DNA from: Taklimakanibacter albus
GTDB taxonomy: Bacteria > Pseudomonadota > Alphaproteobacteria > Rhizobiales > Aestuariivirgaceae
Length of the DNA: 64,000 nt
Assembly: GCF_016595235.1 (NCBI RefSeq)
Contig: NZ_JAENHL010000006.1
Coordinates: forward strand, 682,001 to 746,000
Direction: 5' to 3'
Shown: positions 31,953-47,599 of the stretch, one piece after another
How the letters are laid out: each line of letters opens with the position of its first letter
Numbering within the stretch: the first letter of the stretch is position 1
Program-made: the position numbers and the translations under genes
Notes under the pieces: model-generated
Seen by the model: only the letters and a program-made list of their open reading frames with translations
Told to the model about the DNA's origin: nothing
Database searches by the model: none

Positions 31953-32029
31953 CGGAGCGTAGCGCAGCCCGGTAGCGCACTACTCTGGGGGGGTAGGGGT
32001 CGCAGGTTCGAATCCTGTCGCTCCGACCA
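31953..32029 (+). tRNA. tRNA-Pro, anticodon GGG
   Basis: A 77-base cloverleaf is complete: acceptor stem CGGAGCG with CGCTCCG, D-arm GCGC/GCGC around AGCCCGGTA, anticodon stem CTACT/GGTAG with loop CTGGGGG (anticodon GGG, 31987-31989), T-arm with loop TTCGAAT, discriminator A and encoded CCA (32027-32029). It reads proline codons CCC/CCU. It lies in the position next to ihfA-merR that is common in Hyphomicrobiales. Confidence 0.96.
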
Positions 32030-32080: not shown

Positions 32081-32611
32081 ATGTCGAACGCGCCGGAAAT
32101 CCTCACCAAGCGCTTCCGCCTGACACCGATCACCCCCGAGATGGTGAGCGACGAGTGGCTGCGCTGGACGGGCGACCCCCAGCTTATGGGGCAGATGAAT
32201 GCCCGCGTCGCCAAGCTGACGCGGACGGATCTCCAGCGCTATCTGGTCGAGTCGCAGCGGCAGAAGCGTGCCATTGTAGGAATTTATGGTCGCAAGGACG
32301 GCGTGCATATCGGCCTCTATGAGACCGAGATCGCCCAGGAGCACAGGAACGTCACGATCGATATTCTGGTCGATCAGGGGCGCTACGACCTCGCCAATGT
32401 CCTGCGCGAAACCGACCCGGCTTTGCTCACATATCTCGCGGGCCGATTCGGACTGGAGAAGGCGGTCGCCAAGGTCGTCGAGACCTATAAGCCTCTGATT
32501 CTCCATTTCGAGCAGACCGGCTGGCTTAAAGAAGGCGTTCTGCGCCAGGAAAACCCCGCGGCTTCGGGAATCGGACGCCTCGATGTGATCCAGTTCGGCA
32601 AGCTTTTCTGA
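32081..32611 (+). CDS. Diverged GNAT-like protein
   Basis: The 176-residue protein starts like a GNAT of the RimJ type (ILTKRFRLTPITPEMVSDEWLRW) and has IVGIYGRKDGVHIGLYETEIAQEHRNVTIDILVDQGRYDLANVL where the acetyl-CoA strand and loop should be, but no recognisable Q/R-x-x-G-x-G/A loop. It may bind acyl-CoA poorly or not at all. It starts 51 bases after tRNA-Pro and precedes the first outer-membrane barrel gene. A better-preserved relative lies at 35252-35839. Confidence 0.65.
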   Translation: MSNAPEILTKRFRLTPITPEMVSDEWLRWTGDPQLMGQMNARVAKLTRTDLQRYLVESQRQKRAIVGIYGRKDGVHIGLYETEIAQEHRNVTIDILVDQGRYDLANVLRETDPALLTYLAGRFGLEKAVAKVVETYKPLILHFEQTGWLKEGVLRQENPAASGIGRLDVIQFGKLF

Positions 32612-32737: not shown

Positions 32738-32851
32738 GCAATGTCCCGAAATGTCCCTTCATGACATTGAACGGCGATCCAACAGTGATGTAAGGGCGGT
32801 CGGGCAGGGGCGCTTGACGTGAATTGAATTGAAGGTTTGGGGACAACAAGC

Positions 32852-33841
32852 ATGATCAGTAAGTTAAAACTCTCGGCGAGCGCTGCTGCGCTGGCTTTGC
32901 TCGTGGCGGGCGCCGTTTCGTCGGCGCAGGCGGCGGATGTCGTAGCCGATGAAGGCTGCACGATCTCGGGCGCCGTGGGCATCGGTTATATGTTCGACTG
33001 GCAGAAGGTCGACTTCGATTTCGGCAGCGAAGACAGCTTCGATGGCGATGTCGATTGGAACACGCCCTTCGGCGAGGCCGGCGGTCTCGTGACCTGCGGC
33101 GGTTTCAACGTCCAGGCCGACTTTGCCTATTACAATCATCAGGGCGATGCCGACGTCGGTCTCGGCAAGCTCGAGGACGTCGATGCTGACAACTCGCACT
33201 TCGGTGGTGCGCTGTTCTGGCGCGATCCTTCCTACGCCGCTCTGGGCGTCAGCGGTTCCTGGGTCAACCAGGACGTTCTGTCCAAGGACTCGGACACGTT
33301 CCGCGTCGGTCTGTTCGGCGAATTCTACATGGAAAACTTCACCCTCGGCGCGTCGGCGCACTACTTCAATGGTGAAGTCATCAATATCGGCCCGCTCGAC
33401 ATCGATCAGGACGGCTTCGAACTCGCAGCCTGGGGCCGCTTCTATGCCACCCCCGACCTGTCGCTCATGCTTCGCGGCGACGCCTTGCTCTCCAATATCG
33501 ATGTCCCGAGTCAGATCACCGATGAAGACGTCGACCTCAATGGCTGGGCGATCACCGGCGAAGCCGAATACCTCGCTTGGGACAAGGGCCTCTCGGTGTT
33601 TGGCGGCGTGCGTTATGCGCAGCGTTCGCTCGACGTCGACAATGAGGATTTCGATGTCGATATCGACGACACCCAGGTCTATGCCGGCTTGAAGTTCTAC
33701 TTCGGCCAGGACGGCACGCTGCAGGATCGTCAGCGCACCGGCACCGTGGACAACACCAGCGTGTTCCTCGAGAAGCTGCCGAATGCTCTGACCTCGGGCA
33801 TCCTCGGCCTCGCGAACGCTGCCGGCGGCAACATCAACTAA
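32852..33841 (+). CDS. Outer-membrane beta-barrel protein, paralog 1
   Basis: The 329-residue product has a signal peptide (MISKLKLSASAAALALLVAGAVSSAQA) and a mature part of alternating aromatic/polar strands typical of an outer-membrane barrel, for example DFAYYNH, SHFGGALFWRD and TQVYAGLKFYFGQ. Two cysteines (EGCTISG near the N-terminus and LVTCGGF about 50 residues later) are shared with both paralogs. After the strand ending in FYFGQD there is a tail of about 42 residues with DRQRTGTVDNTS and FLEKLPN, also shared. Porin function is likely but unproven; the family name is unknown to me. Followed by a strong terminator. Confidence 0.78.
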   Translation: MISKLKLSASAAALALLVAGAVSSAQAADVVADEGCTISGAVGIGYMFDWQKVDFDFGSEDSFDGDVDWNTPFGEAGGLVTCGGFNVQADFAYYNHQGDADVGLGKLEDVDADNSHFGGALFWRDPSYAALGVSGSWVNQDVLSKDSDTFRVGLFGEFYMENFTLGASAHYFNGEVINIGPLDIDQDGFELAAWGRFYATPDLSLMLRGDALLSNIDVPSQITDEDVDLNGWAITGEAEYLAWDKGLSVFGGVRYAQRSLDVDNEDFDVDIDDTQVYAGLKFYFGQDGTLQDRQRTGTVDNTSVFLEKLPNALTSGILGLANAAGGNIN

Positions 33842-33863
33842 GCCTGAACCAATGAAATGATGG

Positions 33864-33897
33864 GGAAGGAAGCCATGTGCTTCCTTCCTCTTTTTTT
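33864..33897 (+). terminator. Rho-independent terminator of barrel paralog 1
   Basis: GGAAGGAAGC (33864-33873) pairs perfectly with GCTTCCTTCC (33879-33888), loop CATGT, and is followed by TCTTTTTTT. The stem sequence recurs in the terminator of paralog 2, showing that the duplicated unit included it. Confidence 0.93.
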
Positions 33898-34069: not shown

Positions 34070-34166
34070 GTTCTTTCCCGCCAATTTTCCTCCAAGGAAT
34101 TGAACTGATGCCGCCCGCCGATGTATTCGATAGGCGACGGGCCAAATGAATTGGGGACTGACAAAA

Positions 34167-35135
34167 ATGATCGGCAAACTGAAACTTTCCGCAAGCGCCG
34201 CTGCTCTGGCTTTGCTGGTGGCTGGAGCTCTTTCCTCCGCCCAGGCGGCTGACGTGATCGACGAAGGCTGCACGCTCTCGGGCGCCGTCGGCATTGGCTA
34301 TATGTTCGACTGGCAGAAGGGCGACTTCGACTTCGGCAGCGAGGACTTCGACGGCGATGTCGATTGGAACACACCCTTCGGTGAGGCCGGCGGCCTCGTG
34401 ACCTGCGGCGGTTTCAACGTCCAGGCCGACTTTGCCTATTATAATCATCAGGGCGACGCCGACATCGGTTTAGGCAAGCTCGAGGACGTCGACGCCGATA
34501 ATTCGCATTTCGGCGGCGCGCTGTTCTGGCGTGACCCGTCCTACGCGGCTCTCGGCGTCAGCGGCTCCTGGGTGAGCCAGGACGTTTTGACGAAGGATTC
34601 GGACGTCTTCCGCGTCGGCCTGTTTGGCGAGTTCTATCTCGATAACATTACGCTGGGCGGTTCAGCCCATTACTTTAACGGCGAGCTCCTTGACATTGGT
34701 GTCCTTGATTCCGATCAGGATGGTTTCGAGCTGGCCGCTTATGCTCGTTTTTATGCGACGCCCGACCTGTCGCTCATGCTGCGCGGCGACGCCTTGTTCT
34801 CCAGCATCGACGGCGATCAGGGAGCGGACGCCGACGTGGATGGCTGGGCGATCACCGGCGAGGCCGAATATCTCGCTTGGGACAAGGGCTTGTCGGTCTT
34901 CGGCGGCGTGCGTTATGCCCAGCGGAGTATCGACCCGGACGAGGGCGACCAGGAACTCGACATCGACGATACGCAGGTCTATGCCGGTCTGAAGTTCTAC
35001 TTCGGCCAGGACGGCTCGCTCATGGATCGTCAGCGGACGGGTGTCGTCGACAATACCAGCACCTTCCTCGAGAAGCTGCCCAACATACTGACCTCGTCGA
35101 CACTCGCCCAGGCCAATGGCGGTGGCGGTCTCTGA
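34167..35135 (+). CDS. Outer-membrane beta-barrel protein, paralog 2
   Basis: The 322-residue product is the closest relative of paralog 1: signal MIGKLKLSASAAALALLVAGALSSAQA, then long identical blocks such as GAVGIGYMFDWQK, WNTPFGEAGGLVTCGGF and NSHFGGALFWRDPSYAALG. The two cysteines and the tail DRQRTGVVDNTS...FLEKLPN are kept. Differences cluster in the segment corresponding to residues 160-240, likely surface loops. The tandem copy, with similar upstream element and terminator, points to duplication of a whole transcription unit. Confidence 0.78.
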   Translation: MIGKLKLSASAAALALLVAGALSSAQAADVIDEGCTLSGAVGIGYMFDWQKGDFDFGSEDFDGDVDWNTPFGEAGGLVTCGGFNVQADFAYYNHQGDADIGLGKLEDVDADNSHFGGALFWRDPSYAALGVSGSWVSQDVLTKDSDVFRVGLFGEFYLDNITLGGSAHYFNGELLDIGVLDSDQDGFELAAYARFYATPDLSLMLRGDALFSSIDGDQGADADVDGWAITGEAEYLAWDKGLSVFGGVRYAQRSIDPDEGDQELDIDDTQVYAGLKFYFGQDGSLMDRQRTGVVDNTSTFLEKLPNILTSSTLAQANGGGGL

Positions 35136-35152
35136 TAGACCTTGAAGGCTTG

Positions 35153-35187
35153 AAAGGGGAAGGAAGCCACCGCTTCCTTCCCCTTTT
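35153..35187 (+). terminator. Rho-independent terminator of barrel paralog 2
   Basis: GGGGAAGGAAGC (35156-35167) pairs with GCTTCCTTCCCC (35172-35183) around CACC; flanking AAA and TTTT extend the stem, and TTTTGCTT follows. Confidence 0.92.
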
Positions 35188-35251
35188 GCTTGGCTTTGAC
35201 CGGGCCGGCAAAGCCCTATAGTACAAGGCCTCCGCATGTGATTTTGAGCCA

Positions 35252-35839
35252 ATGGCCACTCTTCCTCCGCCTTCACTTACGCTCGAAACCAAGAACTTTC
35301 TCATCCGGCCGATTTCAGGCGCCGATCTGGGGGAGCGGCTTTCGGGTTGGGCCGATGACGAACTGGCCGCCGAAATGCTGAACACGAAGCGGCGGCAATG
35401 GGCCGTCCGCGAGCAGACCGCCTTCTTTGCCAAGTTCGAGAACCAGCCGGGTAAATTGGCCTTGGCCATTCTCCCGCGCGGAGAGCCGCATCCGATCGGT
35501 TTCTACACCCTTCATCTGCAGCCTCGCATCGGGGTCTTTACGATCTCGCATCTGATCGGCGACGCCAATTGGCGCGGCAAGGACCTCACGACCGAAACGT
35601 CCGACGCCATCTATGGATATCTGTTCGATAAGCTCGGCTATGCCAAGGCCAAGGCAAATGTGCGGCCGCAGAACCGTCCGATGCTCTGGCTGATGCTCAG
35701 CGACAAGATTTGGCGCAAGGAGGCGCGCCTTGTGCGGCATTTGCGCGACGCCGCGACCGGCGAGCGTAAGGACATGCTGGTGCTGGGCATGATGGCGGAT
35801 GATTGGCGCACCGCCCGCGCGCCGCGTCCTGCCGCGTGA
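35252..35839 (+). CDS. GNAT-family acetyltransferase, first gene of a P450-ACP cassette
   Basis: The 195-residue protein is RimJ/RimL-like: LETKNFLIRPISGADL at the start, then IGFYTLHLQPRIGVFTISHLIGDANWRGKDLTTETSDAIYGYLFDKLGYAKAKANV split over the GNAT strands and helix, and RPQNRPMLWLMLSDKI. The acetyl-CoA loop is less canonical (NWRGKDL). It ends 4 bases before the GTG start of the P450 gene, whose stop overlaps the acyl carrier protein start; the three are one operon. It could acylate an amine on a carrier-bound intermediate, which is inference. Confidence 0.75.
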   Translation: MATLPPPSLTLETKNFLIRPISGADLGERLSGWADDELAAEMLNTKRRQWAVREQTAFFAKFENQPGKLALAILPRGEPHPIGFYTLHLQPRIGVFTISHLIGDANWRGKDLTTETSDAIYGYLFDKLGYAKAKANVRPQNRPMLWLMLSDKIWRKEARLVRHLRDAATGERKDMLVLGMMADDWRTARAPRPAA

Positions 35840-35843
35840 GCCC

Positions 35844-36875
35844 GTGAAATCCTATCAGCTCCATTCGGCCGATCGCCGGCAGGCCCTGTTTGCGCAATTA
35901 TCTCCACGCGTCTGGCTGGAGAACGATCTGCTGCGCGCCTGGGTCATCACCGACCCCGCCGTGATCCTGCGGGTACTGCGCAGCCCGCTGGCGATCGTTT
36001 CAAGCCTGACCGACGTCATGAAGGCAATAAAGGAGAACTACGGGACCGAGCTTCCCAATGTCGCCTATGCTTGCAGCGTTCTCCCGCTGCTGGTGGCGGA
36101 CGAGGCGCATCCCGCGGCACGCAAGGGCTTCGCGACATTCCTCGCCGCAAGGTTGGCTGAGCTCGAAGGAGAACTGCCCGAGCTTTCGAAGGCCTGTCTC
36201 TCTCCGTTGAGCCGGCCAGGGCGCGTCGACATCGTGTCGGAAGTCGTCGACCCTTTCATCCACCGGGTCTTTTCGGTCTTTCTGCAATGCGACCTGCCGG
36301 CGGAATTCCTGGCGATGCATGTCGGAGACATTCTGTCCTTCAACACCAATCTCGCGCGCTTGAAGAGCCTCGAGGCGCGCATCGCCAAGACGCTGGCGTT
36401 CCTGCGCGCGACGACGCCGAACGAGGCCGATATTGCGTGGAAGTTCACGTGCCTGGTCTTCGGTCTCGACTCCCTGGCGATGATGCTGACCGAGAGCATC
36501 GTAACTGCCACGGGCGGCGCTTCGGCCCATCCGGAGGGTATCAGGCTGCCACAATTTCCGATTGAAACCGGAGTTCCGGTGACCTTCAGGCGCGCCAAGG
36601 CCGATTTCGAGATGGATGGCTGCTCGTTCAAGGCCGGCGACTTGATTCGCCTGCAATTGCAGGCTTTTGGCTATTCCGACCTAGCCGAGCATCGGAACTT
36701 CATCTTTGGCGCCGGGATGCACTCCTGCGTCGGCAAGCAGCTGTCGTTGCGGATCTGGGACAGTTTCAAACGCGAATTCGACCGGCTCGATCTGAAGGCC
36801 GGTATAACCGACTATCAGCTCATGCCTTCCCACTTCATCATCTTGCACAAATTGGTAGAGGTAGACGTTCGATGA
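35844..36875 (+). CDS. Compact cytochrome P450
   Basis: The 343-residue protein, shorter than the usual 390-420, has the P450 marks: I-helix FGLDS (206-210, in place of A-G-x-D-T), K-helix E231-G-I-R234 (ExxR), the following TFRRAKADFEMDG strand region and the heme loop FGAGMHSCVG with cysteine ligand C295. The segment between ExxR and the heme loop is about 60 residues, with the meander abbreviated. No membrane anchor is present, so it is soluble. The gene overlaps the carrier protein gene by 4 bases, suggesting a carrier-bound substrate as for P450BioI. Start GTG 35844 is chosen; ATG 35799 would overlap the GNAT gene by 41 bases. Confidence 0.83.
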   Translation: MKSYQLHSADRRQALFAQLSPRVWLENDLLRAWVITDPAVILRVLRSPLAIVSSLTDVMKAIKENYGTELPNVAYACSVLPLLVADEAHPAARKGFATFLAARLAELEGELPELSKACLSPLSRPGRVDIVSEVVDPFIHRVFSVFLQCDLPAEFLAMHVGDILSFNTNLARLKSLEARIAKTLAFLRATTPNEADIAWKFTCLVFGLDSLAMMLTESIVTATGGASAHPEGIRLPQFPIETGVPVTFRRAKADFEMDGCSFKAGDLIRLQLQAFGYSDLAEHRNFIFGAGMHSCVGKQLSLRIWDSFKREFDRLDLKAGITDYQLMPSHFIILHKLVEVDVR

Positions 36876-37126
36876 CGGCCGATGAAGCTAAAGTCATGAT
36901 CCTGAATATCCTGCAGAATCTTGAGCTTATCGATGGAAAGCAGAAGGACGACGTGCTTTCCGGGCGGGCTGCGGACATCGAGCTGGCCGGGCTCGGGATC
37001 GACAGTATGAAGGTCGTCGATATGTGTGTCGGGCTGGAGGAAGAGGTCGGACGCGAGATCGAGGTCGAGGAGCTTATTGAAAATCCGACCGTAAATCAGC
37101 TGGCCGCCCATTTTGCCAAGACGTAG
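36872..37126 (+). CDS. Stand-alone acyl carrier protein
   Basis: The 84-residue acidic protein has the carrier fold with the phosphopantetheine site LGIDSMKVVDM (serine 45), and EIEVEELIENPTVNQLAAHF as the last helix region. It overlaps the P450 gene by ATGA, so it is translationally coupled to it. It is not the housekeeping ACP (fabH and plsX lie elsewhere in this window without one). No adenylation, ketosynthase or phosphopantetheinyl transferase gene is nearby, so loading must be done by an enzyme encoded elsewhere. Confidence 0.9.
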   Translation: MTADEAKVMILNILQNLELIDGKQKDDVLSGRAADIELAGLGIDSMKVVDMCVGLEEEVGREIEVEELIENPTVNQLAAHFAKT

Positions 37127-37265: not shown

Positions 37266-38267
37266 ATGATCGGCAGGTCGAAACTTTCCGCAAGTGCTTC
37301 TGTCTTGGCGCTTCTTTGGGTTGTAGGCGCCACTCCGGTTGAGGCGGCCGACTATGAAGAGCCGGGCTGCACGATCTCCGGCGCCGCCGGTGTCGGCTAT
37401 ATGTTCGACTGGCAGGAAGTGGAGTTCGACGGCGTCGGCAGCCTCTTTGAGAATTTCTCAGGCGACGTCGATTGGAACACGCCCTTTGGCGAGGCCGGCG
37501 GCCTCGTGACTTGTGGCGAGTTTAATATCCAGGCTGATTTTGCTTACTACGATCACTCGACCGACCTCGCCGACCTGGGCAATTTCGGGAAGGAGGATCT
37601 CGGTGATCTGGACGCCGCAAACTCGCATTTCGGGGGCGCTTTGTTCTGGCGCGATCCTTCCTCGGCCGCGCTCGGACTCTCGGCATCCTGGGTAAACCAG
37701 GACGTGTTCTCCAAGGACGTTGATCTTTTCCGTTTCGGCGTTTTCGGCGAGTTCTTTGCCGATGCCTTCACCTTTGGCGCATCGGCGCATTATTTTAATG
37801 GTGATTTCATTCAGGAGTCCGAGCACGACGGCTTCGAGCTTGCCGCTTACGGCCGGTTCTATGCGATGCCGGATCTGTCGCTCATGCTGCGTGGCGATGC
37901 TCTCCTGTCCACAATTGAACCTGGTACAGGCGGGGACGACGCCGACTTCGACGGTTGGGCGGTTACCGGTGAGGCTGAATATCTCGTATGGGACAGAGGG
38001 CTTTCGATATTCGGCGGCGCCCGTTACGCCGAACGTACATTGGATACCGGCGAGGAGGGGGATGTCCAATTCAACGACACCCAGGTCTATGCCGGCCTGA
38101 AATTCTATTTCGGGCAGGACGGGTCGCTGATGGATCGTCAGCGCACTGGCCTGATCGACAATACCAGCACTTTCAATGAGAAGCTGCCGAACTGGTTCTC
38201 CTCCGAGATTGCCGCGGCGCTTGACGTATTGAGCGGCATCGAGCTGCCGCCGCCCCCACCGCCATAA
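37266..38267 (+). CDS. Outer-membrane beta-barrel protein, paralog 3
   Basis: The 333-residue product is the most diverged of the three barrels: signal MIGRSKLSASASVLALLWVVGATPVEA, the cysteine pair (EPGCTISG and LVTCGEF), the WNTPFGEAGG and NSHFGGALFWRD blocks, and the tail DRQRTGLIDNTSTFNEKLPN. It differs by a polyproline end (six prolines) after that tail. GGAGGGGGG stands just upstream of the ATG. It follows the GNAT-P450-ACP cassette and its stop directly abuts the convergent sulfotransferase gene. Confidence 0.78.
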   Translation: MIGRSKLSASASVLALLWVVGATPVEAADYEEPGCTISGAAGVGYMFDWQEVEFDGVGSLFENFSGDVDWNTPFGEAGGLVTCGEFNIQADFAYYDHSTDLADLGNFGKEDLGDLDAANSHFGGALFWRDPSSAALGLSASWVNQDVFSKDVDLFRFGVFGEFFADAFTFGASAHYFNGDFIQESEHDGFELAAYGRFYAMPDLSLMLRGDALLSTIEPGTGGDDADFDGWAVTGEAEYLVWDRGLSIFGGARYAERTLDTGEEGDVQFNDTQVYAGLKFYFGQDGSLMDRQRTGLIDNTSTFNEKLPNWFSSEIAAALDVLSGIELPPPPPP

Positions 38268-39065
38268 TCAAGCGCCGGCTTTGGCCAGCAGGCGTTGCCA
38301 GTGCCGCGATATATGCGCACCGAAACGCTGCGCCAGCTCGCGCGCGAGTTGGTTATTGTGGGAAGAGCGCGGCAGCAGTTTGAGGATGTTGCCGATGTCT
38401 CCGCTCGAATGCCCTGTTCCGAGCACGCTCAGCGTCGCTTGAATCTTCTCCGCATCGGCCAGGTCTTCGCAGTATAGGGACAGGATCCGCTGCTTCCTGT
38501 TCTTCAGATACCGGTCCCAATATTGCTCCGCGCGGAAGACGTATTCCACCCACTTTTCTGCGATGGCTTCATTCAGGGCGCTGGGTTTCTTCAGGAGTAC
38601 CCCTGACGCATCATCCCATATGCCGGTCTGGAGGGCGGCTCCCAGGCTGACGACCTGGCCGACGATGTCGCGCCGGCGCAGCCGGATGATCGTCACATTC
38701 GGAAGCGCATCCTCCCAAGCCCCGCCGAGATCGGCGCTGAGTTGTCTGTGCTGATCGGCGTGGATCTTGTAGGAGAGATACCCATTGCGGCATCGATAGG
38801 TTTGTATGGCCCGCACATAATCCTTCATGAAGGCGCCATCGATCGACGGAGCCCCGCCGAGAAATCGCTCACCGTAGCGTTCCGTCACTCTTTGAAGAAA
38901 GTACTCCGCCGGCACGCCCAGGCCCATGGCGTAAAGCAGCCGGCACAGGCTCTGGCTACCGGTGCGCGGTGTGCTGAGAATGGCGAGCGCTGCCTTGGGA
39001 GGAGTGTCATGGGCATCGAATTGCGGCGCCCAGGCCGTGTCGAAAGTCAGATAGTCGGCATCCAT
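38268..39065 (-). CDS. Sulfotransferase, Stf0/NodH-like
   Basis: The 265-residue protein has the PAPS-binding loop near the start, ILSTPRTGSQSLCRLL (5'-phosphosulfate loop), and the second phosphate-binding region VTIIRLRRRDIVGQVVSLGAA, as in Stf0 and LPS/Nod-factor sulfotransferases. It should transfer sulfate from PAPS to a glycan or glycolipid. It sits at the edge of the exopolysaccharide locus, 49 bases beyond the end of the O-antigen ligase-like gene, so the polymer may be sulfated. ATG 39065 is the first sound start; a longer frame to 39293 reads through the end of the neighbouring gene. Confidence 0.83.
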   Translation of the reverse strand: MDADYLTFDTAWAPQFDAHDTPPKAALAILSTPRTGSQSLCRLLYAMGLGVPAEYFLQRVTERYGERFLGGAPSIDGAFMKDYVRAIQTYRCRNGYLSYKIHADQHRQLSADLGGAWEDALPNVTIIRLRRRDIVGQVVSLGAALQTGIWDDASGVLLKKPSALNEAIAEKWVEYVFRAEQYWDRYLKNRKQRILSLYCEDLADAEKIQATLSVLGTGHSSGDIGNILKLLPRSSHNNQLARELAQRFGAHISRHWQRLLAKAGA

Positions 39066-39114
39066 GCGAGCAAGATTAGCGGCCGAATTGGGGATGCCAA
39101 GCTCTAATGTAACT

Positions 39115-40383
39115 TCACAGCTTCGATGGCGCAGGTGACGGGAAGCTCGCCTGCTGTCGTTCGTAAGCGAGCGTCGCCCCCAGCAATCCCCACATGCAGC
39201 CGAGTAGCAGATAGAAATGGCGCCAATGGTCGATGTCGATCTGCACACCCTGCAGCATGACGGCGACGAGAGGACAGTAGATGGCGATGGCATGATGCTG
39301 CCACGGCGTCCTGGTGCGCATGGCGCGCCAGCCCGCCCAGAATGTCATGATCACCAGCGCGAAGAATGTGAAGCCGCCGAGCCAGCCATAGGAGGCGAAG
39401 GCGTTGAGATAGACATTGTGCGGATCCTGTCCGTAAATATAGCGGAAGTGACGTGGATTCATGCCGCCAGGCTGGGTCAGGACACGGGGAATGCTGGCGA
39501 TCTGACGCCCGAAACGCCCTTCTTCGCCGACATCATAGGATTGGCTGAGGCTGGCGCGGACTTCGAAGAGCTTCTGAATCTGCGGAACCTGTACCGCGGC
39601 GACACCGGCAACGCTCAGCAGAACGGCGCCGCTCACCGACAGGAAGATGACACGGTTGCGCAAGGCCGGACTCGGCGCCAGCAGAAGGGTGAAGACGACG
39701 AGCAGGATGCCCGAGCCCGCCATGTTGATCCAGGCGCCGCGCGAGAAGGCGAGGAGCATCGCCAGTGAGATGATGAGAATATTGACGATGGTCAGAACCG
39801 GCCGGCGGCTTCTGCGGAGCAGGATGTCCTGGGCCAGAAAGACGAAGGGCGGCACGAGAAACGGTGCAAAGACATTCGGGTCCTTGAACGTGCCTTGCGC
39901 GCGGCCCATGGGCGCCCAGGCGCCGGCTGTCCCACCCACGTCGAAATAGGTCAGGATACCGATGATGGAAGCGATGACGCCCGCCGCGATATAGCCGCTG
40001 CGAATGATCTCCATCCGCTTATTGGTATCGCTCGTCAGCAGGAAGCAGAAGAACAGGCCGGTGACGGCCATGTAGTAGGAGATGATGGTGAACCAGACCG
40101 ATATCTTGTCATCGAGGGCGCCTTCGAGCCCGACAGCGCCGCCGAGGTTGTAGAGGATCAGGAAGGCGAAGAAGGGCAGCGCCACGAGCGGCACCTTCAG
40201 GCCGCCGCCGGGCAGGAACAGCAGGAAAACCAGGATGAAGATCAGCTCATAGGGCGACGGCTCGATGACCACGAACCATGCCGACGCGACCAGCAGCCAC
40301 AGCACCGCATTGCGCCAGGTCTCGAGGCTGCCCAATGTCCTTTGCGGACCGGTAAGAGAGGATTGGGCAGCGCTGGCGGTCAA
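39115..40383 (-). CDS. O-antigen ligase/polymerase-family membrane protein
   Basis: The 422-residue protein has about eleven to twelve hydrophobic helices. The large periplasmic loop lies at about 265-325 and holds GRQIASIPRVLTQPGG and YGQDPHNVYLNAFASYGWLG, the His-containing motif of the Wzy/WaaL superfamily; GTFKDPNVFAPFLVPPF is another family mark. In this locus it is the likely polymerase of the exopolysaccharide. It overlaps the initiating transferase gene by 4 bases (ATGA). Confidence 0.87.
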   Translation of the reverse strand: MTASAAQSSLTGPQRTLGSLETWRNAVLWLLVASAWFVVIEPSPYELIFILVFLLFLPGGGLKVPLVALPFFAFLILYNLGGAVGLEGALDDKISVWFTIISYYMAVTGLFFCFLLTSDTNKRMEIIRSGYIAAGVIASIIGILTYFDVGGTAGAWAPMGRAQGTFKDPNVFAPFLVPPFVFLAQDILLRRSRRPVLTIVNILIISLAMLLAFSRGAWINMAGSGILLVVFTLLLAPSPALRNRVIFLSVSGAVLLSVAGVAAVQVPQIQKLFEVRASLSQSYDVGEEGRFGRQIASIPRVLTQPGGMNPRHFRYIYGQDPHNVYLNAFASYGWLGGFTFFALVIMTFWAGWRAMRTRTPWQHHAIAIYCPLVAVMLQGVQIDIDHWRHFYLLLGCMWGLLGATLAYERQQASFPSPAPSKL

Positions 40384-41891
40384 TAGGCATTCTCCGTCGA
40401 GAACAGCGAGATCGGCGTGTAGAACAGAATATAGAGATCGAAGGCGATCGACCAGTTCTCGATATAATAGAGATCGTGTTCGACGCGCCGGTGAATTTTG
40501 TCGAGTGTGTCGGTCTCGCCGCGCCAGCCATTGATCTGGGCCCAGCCGGTGATGCCCGGCTTGACCTTATGGCGCGCGAAATAGCCCTCTACCGCATCCG
40601 GGTAGAGATGCTCCTGTGCCTTGGCGTGGGTGGCGTGCGGCCTTGGGCCGACAAGCGACAATTCGCCTTTCAGCACATTGAAGAGCTGCGGCAGCTCATC
40701 GAGGCTGGTCTTGCGGATGAAGCGGCCGACGCGGGTCACACGCGGGTCGTCGCGCGTCACCAGTTTCGTCGCCGCCCGGTCGGTCATTTCGGTGTACATC
40801 GAGCGGAACTTGTAGACGTCGATGAGCTCGTTGTTGAAGCCGTAGCGGTGCTGGCGGAAGAACACCGGCCCACGGCTTTCGAGCTTGATGGCGAGGGCCA
40901 CCAGCAGCATCACCGGCGACAGCAGCAGGAGTGCCAGGCCGGCAAGCAGCTTGTCCTCGATGGATTTGGCGAACAGGCCCCAGTCGGTCAGCGGCTTGTC
41001 GAAAACGTCGAGGCAGGGAACATTGCCGATATAGGAATAGGCGCGCGGCCGGTAGCGCACCTTCTGCGCATAAGCGCTGAGCCTGATATCGACGGGCAGT
41101 ACCCACAGCCTTTTCAGCATCTGGAGAATGCGTGCCTCGGCGGTCAGCGGCAGGGTGACGATGAGCAGGTCGACACGGTTGCGCCGCACGAAATCGATGA
41201 GCTCGTTGACATTGCCGAGCTTGGGATAGCCCGCGATGGAGGCGGGTGAGCGATTGTCATCGCGGTCGTCGAAGATGCCGATCACCGACACGTCGTCCTT
41301 GGACGACTCGAAGGCCTCGATGAGACGGGCGGCGGGTTCACCGCCGCCGACCAGGACGCAGCGCCGGTCAAGCTGGCCTTTGGCGTTCCAGGCGCGCGTG
41401 CGGCGGGCGACGAAGATACGAAACGGGACCAGGAGGCCGAGCCCGCCTACAAACCAGAGCGCCGCCCAGACACGCGAAAAGTCGTCGCCGCTCTTGCTGA
41501 AGAAGAAATAGCTGATCACCAGTCCTGCGATGACGAGCCAGGCGCCGGCCAGACGGGCGATGTAGTCGGCCGGCCGCAGCAGCGCATGGATGCTGTAAAG
41601 GCCGCCGATCTGCAGAAGAATGACCAATGCCAGCGCCGCTGTCACGATGAGGGGCGCATAAACGGTGAGCGATATGGCATGCCGTGGCGAGACATAGGCG
41701 GCGAGGAGCAGGGCGCCGAGCGCGCTGATCAGGATGAACTCGCCGCTGCGGACGATCATCGCGACGACCCGCGCCGAAATGAGAGGAGCCTTGAGCACCT
41801 CGGAGTGAAGCGCCGCATTGTCTTCAAGGCCGAGTTTGGCGAGAAGGCCGCTCGCCGCGAGTGTATGCCGGTACAGCTGTTCGTTGCGCAT
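40380..41891 (-). CDS. Undecaprenyl-phosphate glucose phosphotransferase (WcaJ-type)
   Basis: The 503-residue inner-membrane enzyme starts repeat-unit synthesis by moving a sugar phosphate to undecaprenyl phosphate. It has four N-terminal helices, a CoA-binding-like Rossmann segment ([19 protein letters not shown]), a fifth helix at about 305-330 and the C-terminal catalytic domain with [46 protein letters not shown] and [20 protein letters not shown]. It heads the operon with the polymerase gene. Preferred sugar cannot be told. Confidence 0.93.
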
Positions 41892-42006
41892 TGCAGGTTC
41901 GTTTCAAATTGACACAGAATTTTTTCCCGAACTGCATGGGGAGCAACTTTGGGGCCTAGCGTGACCTCATCGTTAACCAAAGTGAAGGAACGTGCTTAAC
42001 GCGCGC

Positions 42007-43110
42007 TTAACGGGCCGTTTTCAGCATCTCGGCATAGAAGTCGGCGATCTTGCCGCACATGGCGGCGGCGGAGAACCGCGTGCGGGCGTGCTCGGCATGC
42101 GTGTGGGCTTGTGCCAAAACCTGTTCCGGGCTCGCAACCGCTGCCGTGATGGCCGCGGCCAAGGCTTTTGGATCGCAAGGCGGCACCAGGCTCCGGGGCG
42201 GCAGGATCTCCGGAATGCCGCCGACATTCGTGGCGATGAGCGGTTTGCCGGCCGCCACTGTTTCCAGAATGACATAGGGCAGGGATTCTGCCCGCGACGG
42301 CATGACCATTACCCGGCCGAGACCAAAGGCCATTCGGGCCGGCAGTGCGCCGGTGAAACGCACCCGCTCCGCCAGTCCAAGGCGCCCGGCCAGGGCTTCG
42401 AATTCCTGCCGATCCGGCCCATCGCCGACCAGCGTTGCGGTTACCGGACTTGCGGCGCCAAGCAGGCTCAGGGCCTCGAGCAGGTCGCTGACACCCTTGA
42501 GATGCCGCATCTCGCCGAGAAAGATCAGATCGCGCGCATCGGGGCTAAGCGGCACGGCGGTGAACTCTTCCGGCCATAGCCCGTTATGGACGACGCGATG
42601 CGGGAGGCCCGCCAGTCCGACCTTCTCTTCGAAGATCCGGCGCTCATAGTCGCAGACGAAGACGAGCCCGGACCCACGCCGCAGCATCAGCCTCTCGGCG
42701 GTGAGGAAAAGCGCTCCGCGTGGGGATGCCCACGCGTAATGGAGGCTGCCGCCATGGGGCGTGTAGAGGGAAGGGAGCTTGAGGCGGGAACCCGCTAGCC
42801 GCGCATAGACGCCGCCCTTGGCGCCATGGCCGTGCAGGATGTCCGGATTGGCCGTCGCAGCGATCCGCGCGATCGCCGATGCCGCCTTGACGTCGGCGAG
42901 GCCCGGCATGCGGCCGATCGGCAGGCGATGGATGCCGAGATGGCAGGAAGAGGCGAGATCGGCCAGCATTTTTTCCGCCGCGCCGCCGCCGGTCGTGGAA
43001 TCGCAGACGATCCCGACCTCATGGCCAAGGTCGCTCAGGCCACGGACGAGATCGCGGACATGGCGGAAGAGGCCGCCCACTGGCGTGCGGAAAACTTGCA
43101 GGATGCGCAT
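42007..43110 (-). CDS. Glycosyltransferase family 4
   Basis: The 367-residue cytoplasmic enzyme adds a sugar to the lipid-linked repeat unit. GT-B marks are the N-terminal VGGLFRHVRDLVRGLSDLGHEVGIV, the DILHGHGAKGGVYARL region, and the C-terminal MPSRAESLPYVILETVAAGKPLIATNVGG with the E-x7-E type donor site. Start 43110 (MRILQVFRTPVGG) fits the family; the longer frame to 43158 overlaps the Wza-like gene. It follows that gene by 19 bases in the same direction. Confidence 0.92.
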   Translation of the reverse strand: MRILQVFRTPVGGLFRHVRDLVRGLSDLGHEVGIVCDSTTGGGAAEKMLADLASSCHLGIHRLPIGRMPGLADVKAASAIARIAATANPDILHGHGAKGGVYARLAGSRLKLPSLYTPHGGSLHYAWASPRGALFLTAERLMLRRGSGLVFVCDYERRIFEEKVGLAGLPHRVVHNGLWPEEFTAVPLSPDARDLIFLGEMRHLKGVSDLLEALSLLGAASPVTATLVGDGPDRQEFEALAGRLGLAERVRFTGALPARMAFGLGRVMVMPSRAESLPYVILETVAAGKPLIATNVGGIPEILPPRSLVPPCDPKALAAAITAAVASPEQVLAQAHTHAEHARTRFSAAAMCGKIADFYAEMLKTAR

Positions 43111-43129
43111 CGGGTCGGTCCGGATCCGG

Positions 43130-43819
43130 TTAGAACCAGCGCTCGCGGACATAGACAATGTCGCCCGGATAGATCTGGGTGGTGACCGGGACCTTGAATG
43201 TCTGCGTGCCGTTCACATTTTTGCGAGTGAGCATGACCGGTCCCTGATGAGCGCGTGGCGTGTAACCGCCGGCGATCGCAACCGCATTCTGCACCGTCAT
43301 GCCCGGCTGATAGGGGAAGCTGCCGGCTGACGAGACTTCGCCCATGATGAAGAAGGGCCTGAGCGTCGTGACCTGGACCGATACATTCGGGTTGCGCAGG
43401 AAGCCGTTGCGCAGTCGCTTGGCGACGAGCTTCTCGACATCTTGCGCCGACATGCCGCCGACATAGGTCGTCTTGATATAGGGCATCGAAATATTGCCGG
43501 AACCGTCGACCAGATAGTCGTTGGTGAGATCGGCCTCGCCTGCGACGCGAATCGTCAGCTTGTCGCCGGCGCCGATGCGATAACCGGAATCATATTCATA
43601 GGCAGCTGCGGAACCCTGCGCGCCATAAGGCGGCTGAATGCCTTCCGGTGTGGCCGAGGCGAGTTCGGTGACGCTGGCGACGGCACCCGGTCCTTGCGCG
43701 ATATTGCCGTCTGCCATCACGCCCATGCCACCTGTGGCCGCGGTCGGCGGATTGGCGTCCCAGGTCTCCGCGCAAGCCGAGAGCAGGAAGGGCAGGACCA
43801 TGAGGATCAAAAGACGCAT
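43130..43819 (-). CDS. Polysaccharide export lipoprotein (Wza-like)
   Basis: The 229-residue lipoprotein (lipobox LLSAC, C16) is the outer-membrane part of the export channel. The Poly_export domain is visible: YDSGYRIGAGDKLTIRVAGEADLTNDYLVD split over the first strands, GNISMPYIKTTYVGGMSAQDVEKLVAKRL, then a SLBB part FFIMGEVSSAGSFPYQPGMTVQNAVAIAGG. It is shorter than Wza of E. coli (about 380) and lacks the C-terminal membrane helix region, as in many alphaproteobacterial exporters. Divergent from the Wzc-like gene. Confidence 0.92.
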   Translation of the reverse strand: MRLLILMVLPFLLSACAETWDANPPTAATGGMGVMADGNIAQGPGAVASVTELASATPEGIQPPYGAQGSAAAYEYDSGYRIGAGDKLTIRVAGEADLTNDYLVDGSGNISMPYIKTTYVGGMSAQDVEKLVAKRLRNGFLRNPNVSVQVTTLRPFFIMGEVSSAGSFPYQPGMTVQNAVAIAGGYTPRAHQGPVMLTRKNVNGTQTFKVPVTTQIYPGDIVYVRERWF

Positions 43820-44028
43820 ACGCACTGGGGCAACACTCCATAACAGCGCCGATCCGCCTCGCAAGGGCCTGGGCGGAGCGGCGTTGCGAGCGACGATAGG
43901 GATTTATGGTTAGCAATCGCTTAAGCCGCCGACATGGCGGGTAACCTTTGGTGGCTGTTAAGAAAATCCTTACCACAGGCAGGGCATTGTGACGGCCTGG
44001 AAACCCTTTATTAAGCATAAGCCCGCTG

Positions 44029-46275
44029 ATGAAAGATCTCGAGCAAGCCGGAATGAACGCGTCATCGGTCGACATGATGGATCTCCTGCGCGGATTGTGG
44101 CGGCGCAAATGGATGATCCTTCTCATCACTGTGCTCTTCGCCTCGGCGGCCGCCTTCGTCGTGCTGCGCGACAAGCCGACCTACACGGTGGAAGCCCAGC
44201 TTCTGGTCGACAATCTCGAAACTCCCTTCAGCCGCGCGCAGCCTGGGGAAGGGACCGACTCGCGTCCGACCTTCGATGACCGCGATATTCTAAGCCAGGT
44301 TTCGGTGCTGAACTCGCGCGATCTGGGCGATCGCGTGATCAAGGATCTGGGCCTCGCCGGCAAGGGCGAGTTCGATCCGGCGCGCAACGGCATCGGCAAG
44401 ATCAGTCAGATCATGATCGATCTCGGTTTCAAGCCCGATCCGCGGTTGAAGTCGCTCGAGGAGCGCGCCTACGACCGTTACAATTCGCAGCTCAATATCT
44501 ACCAGATCAAGGAATCAAAGGTCATCGTCATCAAATATTCCGCGTTCGATCCCAAGGTCGCCGCGGATGTCGCCAACAAGCTGGCGGAGACTTACGTCGT
44601 TTCGACCCGCGAGATGCAGTCGGAGCCGACCGAGCGAGCCCGCGACTGGCTGGCCGAGCAGATCGAGATCTTGCAGAAAAAGGTCGTGGACTCTGAAGCC
44701 GCGGCCGAAGAGTTCCGCGCCCAGGCCGGACTGCTGAAGGGACCCCAGTCGACGCTCGGCACCCAGGAATTGTCCGAGCTCAACACTCAGATCACATTGG
44801 CGGAAGCGGCGCGCACCGAAGCCCAGGCCAAAGCAAGAGCCATCCGCGAGATGCTCGACAGCAGCGGCTCCGTCGATGTCTCCTCGGACGTGCTGAACTC
44901 CCCCTTCATTCAGCGGCTGCGCGAGCAGCAGATCACTCTGCAGCGAAGCATCGCGGAGCTTTCCGTCACCTATCTGCCGGGACACCCCAAGATGGTCTCG
45001 GTGCGCAACGAGCTCGCCAATGTCGATCAGCAGTTGCGTTCCGAGGCTTTGAAGATCGTCGCCGGTCTCGAGGACCAGGCCCGGACCACGGCGACGCGGG
45101 AAGCGACCCTGCGCGCCAGCCTGAATGCCGCCAAGGCCAAGGCCTCGACCAGCAATCTCGACGACGTGAAGCTCAGAGCGCTCGAACGCGACGCGGCCGC
45201 CAACCGCTCGCTGCTCGAATCCTTCCTGAACCGCTATGCCGATGCGAGCACGCGCCAGGAAGTCACAGCACAGCCGGGCTTCGCTCGTATCATCCAGCGC
45301 GCGGTTCCGCCCACCAATCCGAGCTATCCGCTGAAAGGGCCGACGATCATCCTGGCAATGCTCGCCGGCTTGACCCTGGGCATCGGCCTGGCCTTCCTGG
45401 CCGAGGTGCTGAGAATGGCCGGCGGCAGCCGTCCCATGGCGCCGGCCGAGGCGCGCGAGCCCACTCTTGCGGCACCTCTGGTCTTGCCGGCACCGGTCGA
45501 AGAGGCGCCGGTCGAAATGACGCCCGTTGCGCGTCCGCCACTCCACGCGGTGCCGCCGCAAATGCCGAATTTCGGCAACGCGCCGCCTGGCAATCAGGCG
45601 ATCCTGAGCGAGATTCCGGAAACGCCGGATCTCGGCAAAGCGTCGGCACATGCCCATCAGCCCTTGCACGATCCTTCCGGAAGTTATGCGATCGCCGCCG
45701 GCCGGATCGTCACCTGGCTCAACAATATCCGCCAGTCGCTGGGCGTGCAGAAGCTCGCCATCACGGCCATTGGTGAAACCGGACCCGACAGCGCCACCGC
45801 CGCCGTCGCTTTGGCCCGCATCGTCGCGACCCAGGGCATCGGCACGCTGGTGATCGACGCCGACGAAACGCGCCCGTCCATCCATACGATTTGCGGTATC
45901 GAGGCCGGCAAGGGCCTGTCCGACATATTGCTGGACGAGGCGACGATCGAAGCCGCCGTTCAGCGCGATACGGGCTCGCTCGCCCATATTCTGCGGGCGG
46001 GAACGCGGGCAGGCGAGCTTGCCGAAGCGGCGTCAGGTCCGCGCTTCGATACCCTGATCGAAGCCTTCGCCCAGATCTATCCGGTGATCATCATCCATTG
46101 CGGCGGGCAGTCGACGTCCGCCCCGATGCTGGTCCGCAAGTGTCACGCGGCCTTGCTGATGGCGCCCGGGACCCGCATCCTCGATGCCGCGCGCACGATC
46201 GAGTCCTGGCGCCAGTCGGGATTGCGGGCGGTGCAGTTCGTGCGTATCGGCCAGCCCGTTCGCCGCGCCGCCTGA
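44029..46275 (+). CDS. Polysaccharide copolymerase (Wzc/GumC-like) with degenerate kinase domain
   Basis: The 748-residue inner-membrane protein controls chain length and links export to the Wza-like channel. It has a Wzz domain between two helices (about 29-48 and 441-462), a long coiled-coil periplasmic part, the PxxP-like PTNPSYPLKGP before TM2, and a cytoplasmic BY-kinase-like domain (about 560-745). In that domain the P-loop position reads GETGPDSATA with no lysine, while the Walker A' Asp pair (VIDADETRPS) remains. There is no Tyr cluster at the C-terminus (ending IGQPVRRAA). Kinase activity is therefore doubtful. Start 44029 or 44053. Confidence 0.88.
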   Translation: MKDLEQAGMNASSVDMMDLLRGLWRRKWMILLITVLFASAAAFVVLRDKPTYTVEAQLLVDNLETPFSRAQPGEGTDSRPTFDDRDILSQVSVLNSRDLGDRVIKDLGLAGKGEFDPARNGIGKISQIMIDLGFKPDPRLKSLEERAYDRYNSQLNIYQIKESKVIVIKYSAFDPKVAADVANKLAETYVVSTREMQSEPTERARDWLAEQIEILQKKVVDSEAAAEEFRAQAGLLKGPQSTLGTQELSELNTQITLAEAARTEAQAKARAIREMLDSSGSVDVSSDVLNSPFIQRLREQQITLQRSIAELSVTYLPGHPKMVSVRNELANVDQQLRSEALKIVAGLEDQARTTATREATLRASLNAAKAKASTSNLDDVKLRALERDAAANRSLLESFLNRYADASTRQEVTAQPGFARIIQRAVPPTNPSYPLKGPTIILAMLAGLTLGIGLAFLAEVLRMAGGSRPMAPAEAREPTLAAPLVLPAPVEEAPVEMTPVARPPLHAVPPQMPNFGNAPPGNQAILSEIPETPDLGKASAHAHQPLHDPSGSYAIAAGRIVTWLNNIRQSLGVQKLAITAIGETGPDSATAAVALARIVATQGIGTLVIDADETRPSIHTICGIEAGKGLSDILLDEATIEAAVQRDTGSLAHILRAGTRAGELAEAASGPRFDTLIEAFAQIYPVIIIHCGGQSTSAPMLVRKCHAALLMAPGTRILDAARTIESWRQSGLRAVQFVRIGQPVRRAA

Positions 46276-46276
46276 T

Positions 46277-47491
46277 TCAGGCGGCTTGTCCGAACAGGGT
46301 CCGCCGCGCCGCGAGCACGGCGTTCCAGAGAAATGGTGTGCGTTTGACGCCACGCTTCACTGCGAGGCGCGCTATGCGCGTCAGCGCCCAGCCATAACCG
46401 CGCAGGGTGAGCCCGCGCATGGCGTGATGGAGGCGGACTTCCTCATCCGCCCAGGCGAGCTTGTAGTCGAAGCTGCCGGAGGAGAAGTCGAAGAAGGTCA
46501 GCCCCATGCCGCAGCAGGTTTCGATGGTACGGCGCAACAGCGCGTCACCCGGCGAGTAGCGCCGCAGTCTCGGCGAGCCCAGCGACGAGATGAGGGCCCA
46601 GAACCCGCCGCCATGGAGGCCGCCGAGCGCCACCGCCTCCAGCTCGCCGTCGGCCGTCATGTAGCAGGGCAGGAGCACCGGCTGCATGTGATCGGGCAGA
46701 TCGATGAGGTGATGCACGAACTGCCGCTCATGCTCGTTGAAGACGCCGTGGATGCCGCTTTCGGCAAGGCGGTCGCGCTGCTGCTCGAACATCTGCTCGA
46801 TCAGCCGATGCGCATGGTCGCGATCGCGCGGCAGCCCGACCTCGATCTTTGCCGCCTTGTTGAGCTTGGCGTCGCGCTTGCGGTTGCCGCGCCGCGTTTC
46901 GCCGGAGCGCTTGCGCCCATAGACTTTTTCATAATCGCCATCGAGCCGCAGCAGGTAGGAACAGTTCGGGCCGGCGAGGGTGAACCAGCTGGTGAGCGGG
47001 TGTGCGCTGCCTTCCCATTGGGCGGGCATCTCCGCGAGATCGATGGCGTCGACCTCTTTCAGTTCCGAGAAGATGGCCCAGCCTTGCGTGGCGAACCAGG
47101 AAGCGGCGTCGCGCAGGAAGGCGCGGTCATAGAGGCCGTAGCCATATGTCATCTGCTGGCCGCCCATCCATTCGAGGACGCGGCAGCCTTGGCGCCTGCG
47201 CACGCAGAAGGGCAGGATGAACAGGAGGGCGCCGGACGGATCGCGCCCGGTGACGATCAACGGCGTGGCATTTTGGGCGGCGCCCGCGGTTGCGAGCCAG
47301 GCGCTGCACCACTGATAGGTCTGGAAGAAGGTGCCGGCCGCTTGATCCTGAAAGCGCAGCCACTCCGTTTCCAGAGCCCGAACATCGCGGGTCGAATTGA
47401 TCTCGACACGGAACATCGACGGCCTCGCCGCCGCCGGGGCAGGGACCCGGCGCGCTTTATCCCCGAAAGGAGCGAGGGACGCTATGTTCAA
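46277..47491 (-). CDS. CelD/BcsL-like FemAB-type acyltransferase
   Basis: The 404-residue protein belongs to the GNAT_6 group described as acetyltransferases in cellulose biosynthesis. Features are TFFQTYQWCSAWLATAG near the N-terminus, RKRSGETRRGNRKRDAKL in the middle, and YSPGDALLRRTIETCCGMGLTFFDFSSGSFDYKLAWADEE near the end. It could acylate the exopolysaccharide or its precursor. A TTG start at 47491 is preferred because AGGAG lies 6 bases upstream; ATG 47416 with GAGG is the alternative. Its stop lies one base from the end of the convergent Wzc-like gene. Confidence 0.82.
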   Translation of the reverse strand: MNIASLAPFGDKARRVPAPAAARPSMFRVEINSTRDVRALETEWLRFQDQAAGTFFQTYQWCSAWLATAGAAQNATPLIVTGRDPSGALLFILPFCVRRRQGCRVLEWMGGQQMTYGYGLYDRAFLRDAASWFATQGWAIFSELKEVDAIDLAEMPAQWEGSAHPLTSWFTLAGPNCSYLLRLDGDYEKVYGRKRSGETRRGNRKRDAKLNKAAKIEVGLPRDRDHAHRLIEQMFEQQRDRLAESGIHGVFNEHERQFVHHLIDLPDHMQPVLLPCYMTADGELEAVALGGLHGGGFWALISSLGSPRLRRYSPGDALLRRTIETCCGMGLTFFDFSSGSFDYKLAWADEEVRLHHAMRGLTLRGYGWALTRIARLAVKRGVKRTPFLWNAVLAARRTLFGQAA

Positions 47492-47599
47492 ACGGAACTC
47501 CTGTTGGTGCGAATTTTGCCTTACGGCTAGCAAATGTTCGTCAAGTTTTGGCTGATAGTTCTGTAGTCACGAGAAATTGTAGCCGTTGTTCCCTGGGTA

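Follow-up and report, generated by a model that had tools for sequence, protein, structure and literature searches.

A conserved GNAT, P450-like and acyl carrier protein gene set in Taklimakanibacter albus, and the recurrent barrel neighbours of its acyltransferase

Introduction

In the butirosin BtrI/BtrH system, a side chain is oxidised on a dedicated acyl carrier protein (ACP) and then transferred to an amine. GNAT-fold enzymes can form N-acyl amines from acyl-ACP, and the HlyC-type toxin acyltransferases, which have a GNAT-like fold, use an acyl-ACP donor and an RTX protein acceptor. Cytochrome P450s that act on carrier-bound substrates are also known; P450BioI (CYP107H1) works on an ACP-bound chain, as recorded in PDB titles. 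The locus described here lies in a 64,000-nucleotide stretch (G000:C6:682001-746000, hereafter the window) of the 7.17 Mb genome of Taklimakanibacter albus, a member of a genus placed in Aestuariivirgaceae, Hyphomicrobiales. It combines genes for a GNAT acyltransferase (GNAT_B), a P450-like protein (mini-P450) and a dedicated ACP in one run, accompanied by a second GNAT gene (GNAT_A) and three paralogous genes for predicted outer-membrane barrels. By P450 identity, the nearest named records are Rhizobiales bacterium Y(2018) (98%) and Taklimakanibacter lacteus SYSU D60012 (54%). G and L codes denote genomes and loci, respectively. Genes were called with an in-house open reading frame caller and no annotation was used; the names LpxL-like, FAAL-like, PseB, PseG, Wzy, RimJ-type, OmpA-like and carbamoyltransferase were given by eye or as informal labels.

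Dedicated carrier proteins also occur in envelope-glycan loci. The viosamine island of Pseudomonas syringae contains vioS, vioR, vioB and acp, and its ketosynthase III and reductase build a 3-hydroxybutyryl group (PMC3927599). In that island, a dedicated ACP gene, acyl-modifying enzymes and a transferase combine to put a modified acyl group on the amine of an envelope sugar, which is the likeness to the present locus (PMC3927599). The window differs from the island so described in having a P450-like enzyme and a GNAT, with no ketosynthase seen in the run and no glycosyltransferase inside the set. In Aeromonas flagellar glycosylation, orf1-orf3 encode an ACP, a 3-oxoacyl-ACP reductase and an AMP-dependent synthetase, and thus place an ACP and such a synthetase in an envelope-glycan locus; the relevant passage describes no P450, GNAT-ACP run or barrels (PMC7874193). 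Clusters containing an MtRS paralogue include a GNAT, an acyl-CoA ligase and an ACP, for which co-operation is likewise predicted (PMC2922099). These clusters centre on the aminoacyl-tRNA-synthetase paralogue, whereas none was seen beside the window set, the genome not having been searched for one.

Mini-P450 shares its fold with P450BioI, but differs in lacking ExxR, K helix and meander, at 11-13% identity, and in having its own ACP gene in the same run. The butirosin system differs in its flavin oxygenase, its papain-fold transferase and its product, a secreted antibiotic. The HlyC-type enzymes share a protein acceptor with the present locus only if the barrels are what is acylated. A limited search of open-access literature, covering titles and abstract openings, returned no description of such gene combinations. 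The gene set is real and conserved, and is a variant of discrete-carrier acyl tailoring for which no description was found. The features most likely to surprise a specialist are the linkage of GNAT to barrel genes and a P450-like family without the ExxR helix.

A P450-like family with its own carrier protein

The 343-residue protein is P450-like, and is termed mini-P450 rather than filed as a standard P450 because it has no conserved K-helix ExxR. EXXR, together with CXG, is named as a P450 signature in PMC3990721. The original prediction had listed the heme cysteine and an ExxR. The former was confirmed: C295 lies in FGAGMHSCVG, and the heme-thiolate cysteine of FxxGxxxCxG is present in 13/13 and 12/12 rows of two alignments, the smaller of which proved too heterogeneous to be used for scanning a collection. 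Also invariant in 13/13 rows are the C-helix His and Arg and the I-helix acid, with an adjoining Ser/Thr in 8/13. The ExxR did not hold up. EGIR (residues 231-234) is non-conserved, E..R being found there only in the window protein and its 98% relative (2/13 rows), and the predicted structure has no helix of at least four residues between the end of the I helix (224) and residue 273.

That predicted structure is confident (pLDDT, the predicted local distance difference test score, of 87) and has a P450 fold. In a structure search with the model, the top three matches by Z score were acyl-ACP complexes of P450BioI, with a slight lead over other P450s. The Pfam p450 profile does not match the window protein and matches 3/12 family members at E <= 0.1 (best 1e-6), and the P450 identity of the window protein is drawn from its heme loop, weak PDB matches and fold. 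The family is rare. The window protein was matched in 14/397 genomes of the order, three of them over the heme region only, and within Aestuariivirgaceae the mini-P450 profile gave some match in 30/69 genomes and a full-length match (E <= 1e-35) in 13/69. Three further candidates (L042-L044) proved to be ordinary P450s and were dropped from the counts.

The ACP carries a PP-binding domain above the Pfam cut-off, with Ser45 of GIDSM as its predicted phosphopantetheine site, as originally proposed. In a sample of 31 mini-P450 genes from 27 genomes or records, 29 are followed by a same-strand ACP gene whose start is no more than 60 bp from the end of the P450 gene, in many cases with an overlap, and a serine motif is present in all 29 of the linked ACPs; neither refuting condition of the original prediction, genes unlinked in every relative or a non-conserved serine region, is thus borne out. 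The exceptions are G368, in which an ACP lies on the opposite strand, and G463, in which none was found. In T. lacteus the P450-ACP pair is present twice in tandem, along with three GNATs. Comparison of the window with L110 indicates purifying selection on all three genes (dN/dS, nonsynonymous over synonymous divergence: P450 0.10/1.30, GNAT 0.18/0.82, ACP 0.19/1.08). P450s acting on carrier-bound substrates are known, but a P450-like family without the ExxR helix, and nearly always paired with an ACP gene of its own, offers a test of the minimal requirements of P450 function.

The third gene next to the P450-ACP pair is a GNAT in the window's group and differs among other relatives. It encodes an alpha/beta hydrolase in L019 and L034 (PF00561), a thioesterase in L041 (PF00975) and a protein without Pfam match in L022, L024 and L039. 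In L026 and L027 it looks by eye like an acyltransferase and has no Pfam match, and L106 has the same look, by eye alone. In a Bradyrhizobium metagenome-assembled genome (L037:6819-9514), mini-P450 is followed by a fusion of ACP and condensation domain (PF00668 4.7e-70), a sign that the carrier-bound chain may there be condensed with an acceptor. Separately, L030:6800-13373 holds a distant double P450 of 724 residues with two heme loops. Its gene is flanked by those for an AMP-binding ligase and an ACP; a B12-radical-SAM gene lies further upstream, and a gene downstream looks by eye like a carbamoyltransferase.

GNAT-ACP sets and the acyl loader

GNAT_B has a GNAT domain (PF13302, 36 bits against a cut-off of 25.4). 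GNAT_A, which has no Pfam match, is related to it (phmmer 6e-8; profile-profile comparison 99%). All seven genomes of the subgroup (G000, G435, G437, G247, G436, G403 and G397), which span two genus codes, share the five genes for GNAT_A, a tailed barrel, GNAT_B, mini-P450 and ACP; the barrel gene lies between the two GNATs in five genomes and before them in two.

A search based on GNAT_B also found GNAT-ACP sets without mini-P450. A second T. lacteus locus (L137) has GNAT_A, GNAT_B and ACP only, ACP and GNAT are joined by a full-length P450 in L135, L138 and L145 (PF00067 6e-39, 4e-31 and 4e-30), and an AMP-forming ligase accompanies GNAT and ACP in L136 and L147. A B12-radical-SAM gene takes the place of the P450 beside GNAT and ACP at L146:5108-7546. 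Sets of these kinds show that one type of GNAT and ACP has been joined with oxidases that are not orthologous, and that some relatives do carry a loader. Of 28 GNAT loci in the order, 20 have an ACP no more than 1.7 kb away (10 directly adjoining, 10 with a P450 between), and outside the order it adjoins the GNAT in 10 of the 11 best fetched loci (E <= 7e-32), where the two ligase neighbours tested both pass PF00501. The original prediction had noted that the locus lacks a loading enzyme. None is present in the window, but relatives carry an AMP-forming ligase within the GNAT/ACP run. An adenylation domain, as expected for hydroxylation by P450s on peptidyl carrier proteins of nonribosomal peptide synthetases, was not found in the window either.

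Two side observations concern these sets. The second trio of the host genome, ACP-P450 (424 residues)-GNAT, at G000:C8:2282157-2285352 (L138:6158-9353), faces a PF13505 barrel gene in convergent orientation across a gap of 48 bp. The B12-radical-SAM protein of L146 and the P450 of L135 show weak matches, far below cut-off, to ApyD/ApyO models of a pathway for ribosomally synthesised and post-translationally modified peptides.

Linkage of GNAT to barrel genes

Of 28 Hyphomicrobiales GNAT loci, 22 have a barrel gene no more than 300 bp from the module, against 6/183 control genes taken at least 2.5 kb away within the same loci (Fisher p 3e-19). When the loci are collapsed to 17 hand-made groups, the linkage is 13/17 (p 6e-13). 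The 22 barrels comprise 13 with PF13505, all above the Pfam cut-off, and nine of the tailed family found in the window; the test is partly circular, because both barrel models were built from barrels of the same loci. All 15 of the PF13505-type candidates checked against Pfam pass (13 at the 28 loci, plus L026 and L193), and PF13505 was found 70 times across six genomes. The 28 loci consist of 17 from the window's family and 11 of 19 fetched from a search of the order made after the idea of linkage arose; a match in G435:C10 and a second match in G446 were not fetched, and the contigs of G338 and G350 end close to the module. In the 11 best loci of that search, a barrel is present in 7/11, an ACP in 6/11 and an AMP-ligase in 4/11. 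The division into 11 and eight (search E about 1e-29) was drawn after the data had been seen, and the other eight have a barrel within 300 bp in 1/8 (G152) and an adjoining ACP in 1/8 (G043), giving 8/19 and 7/19 over all loci of the search. No barrel lies within 300 bp in 6/28 loci. Outside the order, none of 28 GNAT loci with flanks of up to 1.5 kb had a barrel match, with models that were built from Hyphomicrobiales barrels and may miss others.

The association of the cassette with barrels, as first proposed, is real, but it tracks the GNAT and not the P450: among mini-P450 loci without a GNAT, a barrel lies within 300 bp in 1/19 (L026), a count that is the same at 1 kb. The proposal that three barrel paralogues flank the cassette stands as regards paralogy, whereas their barrel nature is weakly supported. 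None of the three has a Pfam match, nor does the tailed barrel tested from L135 (0/4 in all); barrel 2 reaches PF13505 at 1.9e-4 in a genome search, below cut-off, and the tailed family profile aligns with PF13505 barrels at 94.7% over 61 columns. A search for PDB relatives of a tailed barrel gave only two, both weak (E 0.5 and 0.9). Twelve positions of the tail RTGxxDNTSxFxEKLP are invariant in 11/11 rows, but barrels at a distance from any cassette carry it too, so it is not cassette-specific. Four tandem tailed barrel genes precede ACP-P450-GNAT at L135:8795-13459, which suggests repeated barrel duplication. The recurrent adjacency hints at an undescribed bacterial surface decoration, and a single GNAT family found repeatedly with barrels and with a ligase, ACP or oxidase offers a testable lead to envelope modification in a large order.

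A diverged block between close strains

Identity between the window and the close strain L031 was measured in steps of 150 bases over about 14 kb (28.0-41.8 kb). Identity is 91-100% at 28.0-32.2 kb and 92-100% at 35.8-41.8 kb, and drops to 63-89% at 32.2-35.8 kb, a block that takes in the barrels, GNAT_B and all but roughly the first 120 bases of GNAT_A. As L031 has one barrel in this block against two in the window, both window barrels align to the same gene. Synonymous divergence amounts to 0.17 in the P450 gene and 0.13 in the ACP gene, compared with 0.5 in GNAT_A, 1.0 in GNAT_B and 1.6 in barrel 2. The GNATs and barrels may have been replaced jointly between strains, or may have changed faster in place. 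A tRNA-Pro (GGG) gene at 31953-32029 lies directly upstream of GNAT_A, and the diverged block starts about 170 bp after it.

Proposed mechanism and alternative explanations

The cassette is proposed to tailor an acyl group on a discrete carrier in the service of the cell envelope, oxidising the group and then moving it to an envelope amine; this is judged the probable reading, by a modest measure. Holo-ACP would first gain an acyl or aminoacyl group, from a loader acting in trans or from fatty acid synthesis. Mini-P450 would then oxidise the ACP-bound chain, most likely by hydroxylation, as suggested by the strict P450-ACP pairing and by a fold whose nearest match, narrowly, is P450BioI in its acyl-ACP complex. 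The company of an Stf0 sulfotransferase gene suggests that this enzyme might sulfate the new hydroxyl. GNAT_B would finally pass the chain from ACP to an amine, a step proposed because GNAT-ACP linkage persists without the P450, and in relatives an alpha/beta hydrolase, thioesterase or condensation domain would fill its place. The original idea that the cassette oxidises and acylates a carrier-bound group is compatible with the relatives, and the earlier interpretation as a whole is borne out in part.

Several points weigh against this scheme. What is observed comprises the gene set, the way its members are linked, the partners that vary and the GNAT-barrel statistics; each reaction is deduced from these. 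The missing ExxR and K helix make monooxygenase activity uncertain, and no electron-transfer partner was noticed adjoining the P450, no dedicated search having been made. Eight of the 28 GNAT loci in the order have no ACP inside 1.7 kb. The host genome has 18 AMP-binding matches, none of them in the window or within 500 kb on the same contig. GNAT_B, labelled RimJ-type by us, might use plain acetyl-CoA. The Stf0 gene sits on the opposite strand beyond barrel 3, and is absent from the corresponding place in G247 and G437.

The acceptor most likely belongs to the envelope, the candidates being an amino sugar from the neighbouring exopolysaccharide, a lipid of the envelope and the barrels themselves. 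The WcaJ-type neighbour fits a sugar, and the broader linkage within the order points to the barrels or something working with them. In one alternative, which parallels the viosamine island, GNAT_B would attach a special acyl group made by the cassette to an exopolysaccharide amino sugar in its nucleotide-linked form. In favour of this, the WcaJ-type transferase and other polysaccharide genes directly follow in the window and, by eye, in L020, L110 and L112; the L146 GNAT also has a weak PseH match (4.5e-6, far below cut-off), and GNAT, ACP and ligase of L236 lie near PseB/PseG-like genes. Polysaccharide genes clearly adjoin GNAT sets only in the window's genus, however, with none seen by eye beside L104, L105, L138, L182 and L188, and glycosyltransferase-looking genes also lie near the GNAT-less L024, L025 and L107. 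This reading is judged rather unlikely. Alternatively, the GNAT could act as HlyC-type enzymes do and move the acyl group, oxidised or not, from ACP to a side chain of a barrel precursor still unfolded within the cytoplasm, so that barrels are lipidated or otherwise capped. The linkage (22/28 against 6/183, and 13/17 in groups), its recurrence in 7 of the 11 best loci found later, its near absence from mini-P450 loci without a GNAT (1/19), the joint divergence of GNAT_A, barrels and GNAT_B and the invariant tail positions all favour this. Yet no acylation site could be identified, no shared modification motif was seen among the PF13505 neighbours, and the tailed barrels have no Pfam match and share their tail with barrels remote from cassettes. 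Convergent orientation is common, terminators split the barrels from the GNAT in the window, the later search falls to 8/19 over all its loci, and barrels were matched in 0/28 loci outside the order despite ACP linkage in the top ones. Acylation of the barrels is doubtful. Slightly more doubtful still is the wider proposal of an ACP-dependent protein-acylation pathway for the Hyphomicrobiales outer membrane. In it, a dedicated activating ligase, an ACP, a GNAT and one of several oxidases (mini-P450, full-length P450 or B12-radical-SAM) would be interchangeable parts that together acylate barrel proteins post-translationally, GNAT and barrel being exchanged jointly between strains.

Release of a free small molecule (an N-acyl amino acid, a signal or a siderophore-like amide), with the barrels as receptor or outlet, would accord with the formation of N-acyl amines by GNAT-fold enzymes from acyl-ACP, and the thioesterase, hydrolase and condensation partners of relatives suggest released products. 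This is considered unlikely, as 13/22 neighbour barrels are of PF13505, which we take to be the 8-strand type, and not TonB-dependent receptors, and no conserved transporter or regulator was noticed, no systematic search having been made. Mini-P450 might instead lack monooxygenase activity and be a helper, with or without bound heme, that keeps acyl-ACP in place for the transferase; this would explain the missing ExxR, K helix and meander and the incomplete acid-alcohol pair (Ser/Thr in 8/13 rows), and has precedent in P450-derived activators, for which NCBIfam has TIGR04515. The invariance of the heme Cys, the C-helix His and Arg and the I-helix acid argues the other way, and this role is given a low probability. 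GNATs and porins are common genes, and an acetyltransferase could stand by chance beside a P450-ACP pair and porins; with the five-gene set kept in seven genomes of two genus codes, and the linkage counts as they are, this is already disfavoured and very improbable.

Locus layout and neighbouring genes

The features of the locus are collected in Table 1. The tight layout originally described was reproduced: all three genes are on the + strand, with four bases between GNAT_B and the P450 and an ATGA overlap between P450 and ACP. Terminator-like hairpins follow barrels 1 and 2, so these barrels probably form separate transcripts; 15 such sites occur in the region, where 7.4 are expected. The hairpins, GNAT_A and the Stf0 gene were absent from the original description.

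Table 1. Coordinates of the cassette and its neighbours within the window
Feature	Position	Strand	Remarks
GNAT_A	32081-32611	+	Divergent GNAT paralogue; conserved partner upstream; no Pfam match
Barrel 1	32837-33841	+	Predicted outer-membrane barrel; signal peptide by eye; C-terminal tail RTGxxDNTSxFxEKLP
Terminator-like hairpin after barrel 1	33862-33890	+	12 pairs, then T run
Barrel 2	34146-35135	+	Paralogue of barrel 1; PF13505 below cut-off
Terminator-like hairpin after barrel 2, ahead of the GNAT-P450-ACP run	35151-35188	+	17 pairs
GNAT_B	35252-35839	+	PF13302 1.4e-8; predicted acyl-ACP:amine acyltransferase
Mini-P450	35844 (GTG start)-36875	+	343 residues; heme Cys C295; short meander
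Heme-binding loop FGAGMHSCVG of mini-P450	36705-36734	+	Cys invariant in 13/13 rows
Dedicated ACP	36872-37126	+	PF00550 2.7e-10
Ser45 codon of ACP (GIDSM)	37004-37006	+	Predicted phosphopantetheine site; D44 and S45 invariant in 11/11 rows
Barrel 3	37266-38267	+	Paralogous to the two other barrels; phmmer 2.4e-133 against barrel 2
Stf0-type PAPS (3'-phosphoadenosine 5'-phosphosulfate) sulfotransferase	38268-39065	-	PF09037 8e-9; possible tailoring partner

The Stf0 protein scores 35.8 bits against a cut-off of 22, and with 27 bits against the trehalose equivalog model (cut-off 400) it is not of that type. Its open frame extends to 39293, overlapping the next gene, and the start methionine is placed at 39065. 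Sulfotransferase genes recur in L026, L024, L025 and L105, the last of which has GNAT, P450, ACP and an Stf0 homologue (phmmer 1.7e-19) in sequence with overlapping ends. Apparent Stf0 remnants in L110 and L020 were counted as artefacts, because they lie where the stretch overlaps the neighbouring Wzy frame.

A loader adjoining the cassette was discarded, the nearest AMP-binding match on the contig being more than 500 kb away. A plasmid-borne gene set was likewise rejected after tblastn at E 1e-8 gave no match in 72,556 plasmid records, a set from which records near the host genome may have been excluded. An exopolysaccharide region occupies 38268-47530 of the window. It encodes a WcaJ-type initiating transferase above cut-off (TIGR03023 9.9e-143), together with glycosyltransferase and chain-length/tyrosine-kinase-like proteins that fall under their NCBIfam cut-offs, and a Wzy-like membrane protein that is also below cut-off.

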